Of a DNA stretch of 64,000 nucleotides, positions 36,185 to 39,740 are shown in pieces. Source of the DNA: Actinophytocola gossypii (GTDB taxonomy: Bacteria > Actinomycetota > Actinomycetes > Mycobacteriales > Pseudonocardiaceae); NCBI RefSeq assembly GCF_025165815.1, contig NZ_JAFFZE010000019.1, positions 62,001 through 126,000 on the forward strand, in the 5' to 3' direction. The translations under genes and the position numbers were made by a program. Each line of letters starts with the position of its first letter. The stretch's first letter is position 1. The notes below the pieces were generated by a model that ran no database searches, was not told where the DNA came from, and was given only the letters and a program-made list of their open reading frames with translations.

Positions 36185-39004
36185 TCACAGGACGACGTTG
36201 ACCAGGCGGCCCGGTACCACGATCACCTTGCGGGGCTCGTCGCCGCCGGTCAGGGCGGTGATCTTCTCCTCGGCCAGGGCCGCGGCGCGTACCTCGTTCT
36301 GGGTGGCGGTGGCGGACACGGTCACCCGCGCACGAACCTTGCCGTTGACCTGGATCGGGTACTCGACGGTGTCCTCGACCAGGTAACGCTCGTCGGCGCG
36401 CGGGAACGGGCCGTGGGCCAGGGACTCCTCGTTCCCCAGCGCGCGCCACAGCTCCTCCGCCACGTGCGGGCACAGCGGGGCCAGCATCAGGACCATCGGC
36501 TCCAGGACCGAGCGGGGCACCGGCTTTCCCGCGTACGTCTTGGTGACGTGGTTGTTCAGCTCGATCAGCTTGGCGCCGGCCGTGTTGAAGCGCATGGCCG
36601 CGTAGTCGGCGTGGACGCCGTCGATGGCCTTGTGCAGGGCGCGCAGCGTGGACTCGTCGGGGACCTCTTCGGAGAACCGTGCCTCGCCGGTCGTCTCGTC
36701 GATGACGTTGCGCCACATGCGTTGCAGGAACCGTTGCGCGCCGACGACATCCTTGGTCGCCCAGGGGCGGGAGACCTCCATCGGGCCCATGGCCATCTCG
36801 TAGAACCGGAACGTGTCGGCGCCGTACCGCTCGCACATCTCGTCCGGCGTGACCACGTTCTTCAGGCTCTTGCCCATCTTGCCGTACTCCTGGCGGACCT
36901 CCTTGCCCTGCCAGAAGAACTTGCCGTCCTCTTCGGACACTTCCTCGGCCGGGACGTACACGCCGCGCTCGTCGGTGTACGCGTACGCCTGGATGTAGCC
37001 CTGGTTGAACAGCTTGCGGTACGGCTCCGGCCCGGACAGGTGACCCAGGTCGTACAGCACCTTCTGCCAGAACCTCGAGTACAGCAGGTGCAGCACGGCG
37101 TGCTCGATGCCGCCGATGTACAGGTCAACCCCGCCCGGGTCGTTCGGGCCGTGCTCCTCGGGCCGCGGGCCAAGCCAGTAGCGCTCGTTCTCCGGCTCGC
37201 AGAAGCGTTCGGTGTCCGTCGGATCCACGTAGCGCAGCTGGTACCAGCACGAACCCGCCCACTGGGGCATCACGTTCGCGTCCCGCCGGTACCGCTTCAT
37301 GCCGTCGCCCAGGTCCAGGTCGACCTCGATCCAGTCCGCCGCGCGGGACAGCGGCGGGGACGGCTCGGTGTCGGCGTCGTCCGGGTCGAACGTGCGGGGG
37401 GAGTAGTCGTCGACCTCGGGCAGCTCGACCGGCAGCATGCTGTCCGGCAGCGGGTGCGGCAGGCCGTCCTCGTCGTACACGATCGGGAACGGCTCACCCC
37501 AGTACCGCTGGCGGGCGAACAGCCAGTCGCGCAGCTTGTACTGCAGGCGGCCCTCGCCGTGGCCGTGCCGTTCCAGCCACTCGATGATCGTCTTCTTGGC
37601 CTCGGCGACGTCCATGCCGTCCAGGAACTCCGAGTTGATCGCCGGCCCCTCGCCGGTGAACGCCTCGCCGTCGAAGCCCTCGGTCGGCGCCACGGTGCGG
37701 ACGATCGGCAGGCCGAACTCGCGGGCGAAGTCCCAGTCGCGCTGGTCCTGGCCGGGCACCGCCATGATCGCGCCGGTGCCGTAGCCCATCAGCACGTAGT
37801 CGGCGATGAAGACCGGGATCTCCTTGTCGTTCGCGGGGTTCAGCGCGAACGTGCCGACGAACACGCCGGTCTTGTCCTTGTTCTCCTGCCGGTCCAGCTC
37901 CGACTTCCTGGACGCGGCCAGCCGGTAGGCGGCGATCGCCTCGGCCGGGGTGGCTGCGCCGCCGGTCCAGCGCTCGTCGACGCCCGCCGGCCACTCGGCG
38001 GCGGTGATCCGGTCGACCAGCGGGTGCTCGGGGGCCAGCACCATGTACGTCGCGCCGAACACGGTGTCCGGGCGGGTGGTGAAGACCTCGATGGCGTCGT
38101 CACCCACCGGGAACCGGATGTGCGCGCCGGCGGACCGGCCGATCCAGTTCCGCTGCATGGTCTTGACCTTCTCCGGCCAGTCCAGCGTGTCCAGGTCGTC
38201 GACCAGGCGGTCGGCGTACGCGGTGATCCGCATCATCCACTGGCGCAGGTTCTTGCGGAACACCGGGAAGTTGCCGCGGTCGCTGCGGCCGTCCGGGGTG
38301 ACCTCCTCGTTGGCCACCACTGTGCCCAGGCCGGGACACCAGTTGACCGGCGCGTCGGACTGGTACACCAGCCGGTGGGAGTCGATCACCTTCCGCTGCT
38401 CGACCCGGGACAGCGCCGACCACGCCCGGCCGTCCGGGGTGGCGCGCTCGCCGCCCGCGTACTCGGCCTCCAGGTCGGCGATCGGCCGGGCCTTGTTCAC
38501 CCGCTCGTCGAACCAGGCGTTGTAGATCTGCAGGAAGATCCACTGCGTCCAGCGGTAGTACGTCAGGTCGGTGGTGGCGATCCGGCGGCGCTCGTCGTGG
38601 CCGAGGCCCAGCTTGCGGATCTGGCTCAGGTACCGCTGGATGTTGTCCTCGGTCGTCTTGCGCGGGTGCTGGCCGGTCTGCACGGCGTACTGCTCGGCGG
38701 GCAGCCCGAACGCGTCGAACCCCATGGTGTGCAGCACGTTCCGCCCGGTCATCCGGTGGTAGCGGGCGAACACGTCGGTGCCGATGAAGCCCAGCGGATG
38801 CCCGACGTGCAGACCCGCCCCGGACGGGTACGGGAACATGTCCTGCACGAACAGCTTGTCCTCCGGCACGTCGCCGGCGAGCGGGCCGACCGGGTTCGGC
38901 GCGTGGAACGTGCCGTTCTCCTCCCAGTACCGCTGCCAGCGGGACTCGATCGAGTTGGCCACCTCGGCCGTGTACCGGTGGGCCGGCGTGGACTCGTCGC
39001 TCAT
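36185..39004 (-). CDS. leuS: Leucyl-tRNA synthetase
   Basis: A 939-residue class I synthetase. I place the start at ATG 39002-39004 ([33 protein letters not shown]), with AAGGA upstream; the frame is open further up but covers the attenuator. Motifs: HIGH-like HVGHPLGF in [28 protein letters not shown]1 editing domain with [11 protein letters not shown] (threonine-rich editing site) and [22 protein letters not shown]; catalytic KMSKS as [11 protein letters not shown]-terminal [25 protein letters not shown] anticodon-binding helices. Expression appears controlled by a leucine-rich leader peptide and attenuator directly upstream. Confidence 0.97.
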
Positions 39005-39040
39005 CGGGGGTCCTTCCCTGCTGCACTCGCTCGCGGACAC

Positions 39041-39075
39041 AAAAAACCCCTCTGCCACGAGGGCATGAGGGGTTT
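39041..39075 (-). terminator. Attenuator terminator in the leuS leader
   Basis: On the leuS (minus) strand AACCCCTC-A-TGCC pairs with GGCA-GAGGGGTT (12 bp with one bulged A), followed by six U residues. It lies between the leader peptide and leuS, 36 bases before the start codon, so it must be bypassed for leuS expression. A second hairpin (39076-39105, 11 bp with one G-U) precedes it. Confidence 0.88.
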
Positions 39076-39095
39076 GCCGCGCCGACACCTCGGGG

Positions 39096-39131
39096 TCAGC
39101 GCGGCCACCTAAGGAGCAGGCGTCCGCTCAT
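39096..39131 (-). CDS. Leucine-rich leader peptide of leuS
   Basis: ATG to TGA, 11 residues: [11 protein letters not shown], with three consecutive Leu codons (CTG CTC CTT) at codons 5-7. The stop falls inside the first leader hairpin (39076-39105). The ATG lies only six bases after a -10-like TATTCT, so the transcript probably begins at or next to the A of the ATG (leaderless). A run of Leu codons just before a terminator in front of leuS is the layout of classical attenuation: ribosomes slow when Leu-tRNA is short and prevent termination. Confidence 0.75.
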
Positions 39132-39137
39132 GCCATC

Positions 39138-39143
39138 AGAATA
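39138..39143 (-). promoter_or_regulatory. Candidate -10 element of leuS leader
   Basis: TATTCT on the minus strand, six bases before the leader-peptide ATG. It is the only AT-rich hexamer in the region upstream. No clear -35 is seen. Confidence 0.55.
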
Positions 39144-39257
39144 GCGCGGGCGCGACCACCAGCCATCCGGGTTCCGCACGAATGCGGTTTTCCGCAGGTC
39201 AACCGTGCGGTGAACCGCAGTGTTCGATGATCACGTCCCGCATAGCGTCGCGGCCAT

Positions 39258-39740
39258 GTTGCTCAACACGATCTCGAGCACACCAGCGTGCCCGGCAACC
39301 GCGCGGCCCTGCCCCACCCGCACGCCCACGGCTACGAACCGCTCCCGACGGACCCGCCTCGGGTCGTGGACGCCACGTACATGGACCCGTCACTGGACTG
39401 GGCGGCGGGCGAGATGATCTCCACCACCCGGGACCTGACGCGCTTCGTCACCGCGTTACTCGACGGCCGGCTGACGAGCCGGGAGAGCCTGGCCGAGATG
39501 CGGCGGACGACGGACGCCGGCCCCCTGTTCCGCTACGGGCTGGGACTGCAGGAGTTCACGGTCCCGTGCGCCGACGGCCCGCAGCCGGTGTGGGGCCACA
39601 CCGGCCAGCTGATCGGTTACCTCACCGTCGCCCTCGCGGACGGGGAGGACACGTCGATGGTCCTGTCCCTGAACCCGTACGAACAGGACCCGCCCGTCGA
39701 GGCGGTGCTGGCCATGGCGGTATCGGTGTTCTGCCGCTGA
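39258..39740 (+). pseudogene. 5'-truncated serine hydrolase (beta-lactamase/D-Ala-D-Ala carboxypeptidase family)
   Basis: The reading frame starts abruptly with LEHTSVPGN-type sequence (near 39276), a mid-protein motif of class C beta-lactamase-like hydrolases, and continues with AAGEMISTTRDLTRFVTALLDGRL and WGHTGQLIGYLT, which carries the His-Thr-Gly variant of the third active-site motif. The Ser-x-x-Lys and Tyr-x-Asn motifs that should precede are absent, because upstream is the leuS leader region. So this is the C-terminal ~160 residues of a once complete ~380-residue hydrolase. A GTG at 39288 could still start a 150-residue product. Confidence 0.78.

Follow-up and report, generated by a model that had tools for sequence, protein, structure and literature searches.

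A probably leaderless Leu-Leu-Leu leader and a putative ribosome-mediated attenuator upstream of leuS in Actinophytocola gossypii

Upstream of the leucyl-tRNA synthetase gene leuS in Actinophytocola gossypii, a short open reading frame with three consecutive leucine codons is followed by a hairpin that takes in its stop codon and, without a spacer, by an intrinsic terminator. We read this element, with a probability of about 65%, as a leucine-responsive, ribosome-mediated attenuator of leuS, in which the leader would be read from a leaderless nascent RNA by a ribosome that either opens or spares the first hairpin. Comparison of sequences indicates that it is an ortholog of the leuS attenuator element already known in Streptomyces.

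Architecture of the leuS leader

The element was found in a stretch of 64,000 nucleotides (the window), in which all of its parts lie on the minus strand. A −10 box, TATTCT (39143-39138), is separated by the six bases GATGGC from the ATG at 39131 that opens the leader ORF (39131-39096; ATG AGC GGA CGC CTG CTC CTT AGG TGG CCG CGC TGA), and with this spacing transcription would begin on the A of that ATG or on a neighbouring base; a simple sigma-70 scan of 38950-39300 returned no −35/−10 pair. The leader, whose control codons are CTG CTC CTT (39119-39111), has orthologs across the class, and its stop codon falls within the 5′ arm of a hairpin, H1 (39105-39076), with 11 contiguous pairs and 2 more when 39131-39035 is folded. 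The terminator hairpin, H2 (39075-39044; 13 pairs and one bulged A), begins at the base directly after H1 and is accompanied by a T6 tract at 39046-39041. The fold of this region reaches −54 kcal/mol against a shuffle mean of −36.9 (z −4.99), with none of 200 shuffles as good, and both hairpins are backed by covariation as well as by folding. The leuS gene itself (39004-36185), which encodes a protein of 939 residues in which Pfam detects the editing domain of leucyl-tRNA synthetase, lies 91 nt from the leader stop and is preceded by the Shine-Dalgarno-like GGGAAGGA (39018-39011).

The original prediction had described the TATTCT box, six bases and an 11-codon leader with three Leu codons, its stop inside one hairpin, then a second hairpin with six U, then leuS; all of these were recovered where they had been placed, the hairpins by sequence and fold alike. 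Its remark that the two hairpins do not overlap holds and can be extended, the gap between them being 0 nt in 69 of 88 nonredundant leuS leaders. Two Rfam scans gave no family at gathering score; the best match, with an E-value of 0.092, scored 19.3 bits where the gathering threshold is 50. Beside the leader, on the plus strand at 39288-39740, an ORF of 150 aa matches just the C-terminal part of PF00144 and looks like the remnant of a truncated beta-lactamase-fold gene.

Relation to described leaders

Its short ORF, which directly precedes leuS and contains several Leu codons in a row, gives the element the arrangement of the leuL2-type leuS leaders, and in its control codons and intrinsic terminator it has two components of a classical attenuator. 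Attenuators of leuS, with an antiterminator, have been predicted in S. avermitilis and S. coelicolor (PMC1262725), and in S. lividans TK24 the leader peptide LeuL2, MRAVRLLLSEPR, encoded upstream of leuS, was reported to be leaderless and to be followed by a hairpin and a uridine stretch (PMC8079986). The leader in the window resembles these in its gene, in its three Leu codons, in the ending LLLxxPR* of its peptide and in its hairpin with a U-tract. It differs in belonging to another family of the class, in that its leaderless start is deduced where that of the S. lividans LeuL2 was reported, and in that the antiterminator predicted in PMC1262725 was not recovered here. In the portions of the two Streptomyces accounts considered here (PMC8079986, PMC1262725), no mention was found of the leader/post-terminator pairing that is called P0 below, of the codon bias or of a class-wide set; P0 and a class-wide leuS leader were likewise not found described in the papers on leuS leaders that were consulted, although Lopatovskaya 2010, a comparative attenuation study, may describe them.

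A partial likeness exists to the LEU element of leuA, in which a run of Leu codons also pairs with a downstream strand and closes a larger structure, whereas it precedes leuA, has the Shine-Dalgarno sequence as the partner strand, and is described with a pseudoknot and without a terminator (as presented in PMC1262725); the leader in the window precedes leuS. The ilvB leader of M. tuberculosis (PMC13236596) and the ilvBNC leader of C. glutamicum (PMC11857589) are similar in joining branched-chain control codons to hairpins plus a terminator, and the C. glutamicum transcript is reported to begin one nucleotide from the leader start codon (PMC11857589). They differ in that a mutually exclusive terminator and antiterminator have been proposed for them (PMC13236596, PMC11857589).

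Distribution among relatives and across the class

The nearest named LeuS is that of Actinophytocola xinjiangensis (95% over 175 residues). Among 111 fetched LeuS loci, a number in which the window is counted and some genomes appear in more than one record, 86 carry an LLL leader with a TANNNT box. When LL is allowed, 99 loci (84 distinct) have the leader, 13 of which show LL but no LLL, and it is absent by these LL-leader criteria from 12. Its recurrence at the LeuS loci of relatives indicates that the leader is more than a chance occurrence. The first Leu codon is replaced by Arg in A. xinjiangensis (locus L002, MSIGRRLLTWPR) and at several Kibdelosporangium loci, and two Leu codons may suffice. 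At six Amycolatopsis loci (L037, L047, L048, L067, L070, L077) the leader is missing and a TANNNT box directly precedes leuS, as though leuS were now leaderless in its own right. Locus L011, from a record titled Rhodococcus rhodnii that is probably mislabelled, is identical to Kibdelosporangium aridum (L008) in its leader peptide and its −10 stretch.

A covariance model, R1, was built from an alignment, A1, of 47 leader loci: 83 of the 84 distinct loci were kept (L089 was removed by a motif filter), thinning left 50, and L056, L057 and L071 were then removed for insertions. R1 matches 223 of 297 genomes of the family, in 43 of 46 genera, many of these genomes being either sources of the training set or similar to it. 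In the class it matches 123 of 296 genomes, two of the 123 belonging to the own family. Of the unmatched class genomes, the 20 that are listed belong to the same order and all fall in one family (f2), and there are 153 more. From 149 listed places in the class 110 were fetched and 39 left out, and removal of the two own-family places gave 108 matches, which are followed by leuS (81), ilvB (13), cimA (10), leuA (2) or a gene left undecided (2), shares that are biased, the fetched places being skewed towards second matches of a genome, which make up most of one batch of 20. One protein each passed the NCBIfam cut-off for acetolactate synthase (ilvB), citramalate synthase (cimA) and 2-isopropylmalate synthase (leuA). 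The peptide MRAVRLLLSEPR, identical to LeuL2 of S. lividans, is read in 18 of the leuS leaders found by R1, and these leaders link the element in the window to the Streptomyces one by homology, the assignment to Streptomyces being drawn from the peptide.

Matches before ilvB (e.g. VRFGILVLH*), leuA (MKHLLLIESARH) and cimA (MTIHRIIIARRVG) show the same hairpin plus abutting terminator (L142-L147, L149, L150, L154-L156 and L158-L161). The terminator core CCCCTC recurs in 70 of 88 leuS, seven of nine ilvB and three of eight cimA leaders. The arms ACCCCTC..GAGGGGT (39046-39073) have a single occurrence in the own genome, and the idea of a generic terminator was given up on that ground.

Probable leaderless start

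Leaderless polycysteine ORFs of mycobacteria, the subject of work by Canestrari in 2020, are reportedly associated with cysteine genes and are cited as a case of translation attenuation; going by the title, they would be leaderless amino-acid-sensing ORFs like the leuS leader, with cysteine genes instead. For the leuS leaders, a TANNNT box stands 6-7 nt before the start in 79 of the 80 leaders called outside the family (81 matches), and, while the starts in the class were chosen with a preference for such a box, 61 of the 80 are the unshifted start of the model. At control spacings of 12-13, 18-19, 24-25, 30-31, 36-37, 42-43, 48-49 and 54-55 nt the box occurs in none of the 80, and at 60-61 nt in one. 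Among the 111 fetched LeuS loci it lies 6-7 nt upstream in 85 of the 86 LLL leaders (7, 6 and 8 nt in 43, 42 and 1), and it is present in three of 13 ilvB, one of two leuA and none of 10 cimA matches. Judged by the spacing of the −10 box, the leader of A. gossypii would also start leaderless; the original prediction, in which the Leu-Leu-Leu leader of a leuS attenuator is probably leaderless, is strengthened by the TANNNT spacing outside the family and by the Streptomyces ortholog having been reported as leaderless.

Choice of the control codons

In the 88 nonredundant leuS leaders that were used for codon choice and geometry, the Leu run ends with CTT in 80, with CTC in seven and with TTA in one, and CTC or CTT make up 179 of the 257 codons of the Leu runs, against 8.5% in leuS coding stretches. 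In the latter (86 of these loci, 3105 Leu codons), CTT accounts for 0.6%, CTC for 7.9% and CTG for 87.9%. General wobble rules assign both CTC and CTT to tRNA-Leu(GAG), for which the own draft genome has one gene among the five tRNA-Leu genes found. The bias points to sensitive control codons having been selected, though it could also stem from selection acting on the RNA. Retention of CTT for anti-Shine-Dalgarno mimicry by CTCCTT is not favoured, as six class leaders with CTT CTG CTT retain CTT without having CTCCTT.

Pairings supported by covariation

The pairings were compared by a swap test, in which a segment of one species was paired with its own partner and with those of other species (n=106). 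Loci L200, L208 and L219 (no called leader) and L137 and L218 (no gene match) were excluded from the swap, codon and fold analyses, and L122, whose start call is probably wrong (spacing 5, no Leu run), was retained. The halves of H1 (z −18.5) and of the terminator (z −15.6) clearly prefer their own partners, and in A1, where 94.5% of the cells of the two hairpins are paired, 10 of their pairs show changes in both partners, a count that none of 500 shuffles reached. The own partner was not better for H1 with the terminator (z +1.6), the leader with H1 (+1.6), the leader with the terminator (+3.5 and +2.7), the terminator with the post-terminator segment (+2.1) or H1 with the post-terminator segment (+1.6). 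An antiterminator was found neither by covariation nor by folding, a pairing between invariant bases being excluded by the folds alone. Classical attenuation with a mutually exclusive antiterminator, which was predicted by Seliverstov 2005 for leuS of S. avermitilis and S. coelicolor (PMC1262725) and in whose terms ilvB1 of M. tuberculosis (PMC13236596) and ilvBNC of C. glutamicum (PMC11857589) are described, is improbable for the present element, in which neither covariation nor folding favours any alternative pairing of a terminator arm.

The switch put forward in the original prediction, in which the leader start would pair directly with the terminator, has next to no chance of being right. 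The 8-nt complementarity on which it was founded, between GGCATGAG (39134-39127) and CTCATGCC (39069-39062), does exist in the DNA of the window; it conflicts with a leaderless start, however, because the GGC of GGCATGAG upstream of the proposed +1 would be absent from an RNA that begins at the ATG. Of the complementarity there would remain AUGAG:CUCAU, for which 89.8% of cells are paired, a level that 491 of 500 shuffles also attain; such a 5-bp pairing can be formed in only 18 of 67 class leaders, and the swap test finds own partners worse than swapped ones (z +3.5 for leader nt 1-12 with the 5′ part of the terminator, n=106). The covariation in related genomes that had been proposed as a check is thus present for H1 and the terminator, and also for P0, and speaks against the start-codon/terminator pairing.

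P0 is the third pairing, among those tried, that the swap tests support. It joins the leader to the 30 nt past the terminator, with a swap z of −6.66 (n=106; −4.19 in the class set alone, n=67) against +0.42 for a control segment further downstream, and with a modest energy gain of own over swapped partners (1.8 kcal/mol on average). The stretch with the Leu codons (nt 13-26) gives the stronger signal, with z −5.5, while that of nt 1-14 (z −2.3) is lost at stricter thinning. After thinning to 20-21 sequences z is −3.0 to −3.6 (p 0.0003 to 0.002) and at 10-12 it is −1.9 to −3.2; at 5-6 the signal is lost in two of three draws. In A1, 77.1% of P0 cells are paired (4 of 500 shuffles as high), the covariation score is matched in 2 of 500 shuffles and in none of the slid versions, and the 9 double-change cells are matched by no shuffle, one slid version having 10. 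Neither the number of pairs with both partners changed (116 of 500 shuffles) nor that of pair types (84 of 500) is exceptional in A1. In the window, the candidate strands are CCTGCT (39120-39115), over the Leu codons and supported across relatives, and AGCAGG (39022-39017), which lies 3′ of the terminator and touches the Shine-Dalgarno sequence of leuS; the minimum free energy fold offers another register, GCGGAC (39127-39122) with GTCCGC (39038-39033), and the register of P0 in the window is uncertain. Pairings picked by eye in the ilvB, cimA and leuA leaders looked good and were dropped after swap tests (z +1.3 to +1.6; n=20, 18).

P0 should not be the termination switch, since it can exist only after read-through, and it may instead act on the translation or the stability of the leuS message. 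Taken further, control could reside mainly in P0, post-transcriptionally or translationally in the read-through RNA: a waiting ribosome would keep P0 open and would alter leuS translation, re-initiation from the leader or RNA stability, and the terminator would be a leaky second layer. P0 is indeed the only pairing tried, besides H1 and H2, that covariation supports, and the LEU element of leuA offers a precedent in which Leu codons pair with the Shine-Dalgarno sequence (PMC1262725). We nevertheless regard control by P0 as rather unlikely. By eye, P0 lies mostly 5′ of the Shine-Dalgarno sequence and not over it; its energies in single sequences are weak and near chance (p≤0.05 in 21 of 49 with the narrow segment and in 17 of 88 with the wider one); it is insignificant in the window itself (113 of 200 shuffles as good with the narrow segment, p 0.68 with the wider); and it is unsupported for ilvB, cimA and leuA.

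Ribosome position and the proposed mechanism

The geometry of the leaders is regular: the first Leu codon begins 14 nt ahead of H1 in 59 of the 88 leaders, the last one begins 8 nt ahead of it in 73, and the leader stop lies 7 nt inside H1 in 65. The 88 leaders were folded in four ribosome states, with a footprint of 13 nt 3′ of the codon and with P≥0.9 counted as formed. H1 is formed in 80 leaders without a ribosome, in 61 with a ribosome on the first Leu codon and in none when it stands on the last one or at the stop, while the terminator is formed in 79-81 in all four states. In these calculations the position of the ribosome sets H1 and not the terminator.

A hairpin-dependent pause of RNA polymerase is expected 10-11 nt past the hairpin. 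The first pyrimidine-G step past H1 (at least 6 nt away) has this distance of 10-11 nt in 34 of 37 leuS leaders of the family and in 34 of 51 of the class, and lies at 7-8 nt in eight of nine ilvB and eight of 10 cimA or leuA leaders; a pause at this step that depends on H1 is a weak idea. In the window the step is at 39065-39064.

That the terminator folds in all ribosome states would also suit a constitutive leader, which would provide translation of a short ORF together with a fixed partial termination, or would help translation, without any sensing of leucine; translation-enhancing leader genes, placed 10-11 bp from the gene, have been proposed for Actinobacteria (PMC4833913). The leader stop in the window is 91 nt, not 10-11, from leuS, and such a leader would leave the Leu run and the CTT bias unexplained, which makes a constitutive role very improbable.

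In the attenuation model that we prefer, the ribosome would initiate at the 5′-terminal AUG of the nascent leader RNA. With ample charged tRNA-Leu it would pass CTG-CTC-CTT, reach the stop within H1 and open that hairpin, whereupon the terminator would form and transcription would end before leuS. When the charging of the tRNA reading CTC and CTT is low, the ribosome would wait at the Leu codons and leave H1 folded against the terminator, and the folded H1, abutting the terminator without a spacer, would hinder it, so that read-through into leuS would rise. We infer both that the leader senses leucine and that H1 affects the terminator without base-pair competition. It has to be noted that several observations count against this model. 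The terminator folds in most leaders wherever the ribosome stands, and no pairing was found that would exclude it. The leader is also absent from 12 of the 111 loci, and 13 of the 99 that have it lack LLL. A ribosome on the last Leu codon blocks H1 as well, so that only stalls at earlier codons would separate the two states, and the rare CTT is that last codon. Furthermore, codon changes in the ilvB leader of S. coelicolor were reported to be without effect (PMC1262725).

A more elaborate version is offered tentatively, as a two-layer switch without an antiterminator, and we hold it to be possible but doubtful. The leaderless ribosome would sense tRNA-Leu(GAG) through the selected rare CTT, H1 would act by contact or pausing, and P0 would then tie the Leu codons to the region past the terminator, leader translation deciding the fate of the leuS message.

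The leuS leader of Streptomyces is now extended to many families of the class. The textbook arrangement of two competing hairpins is not visible here, despite the strong conservation of the leader codons, of H1 and of the terminator. Should H1 act without base-pair competition, or should P0 couple translation of the leader to the finished message, the element would represent a form of attenuation open to direct testing in non-pathogenic Streptomyces.
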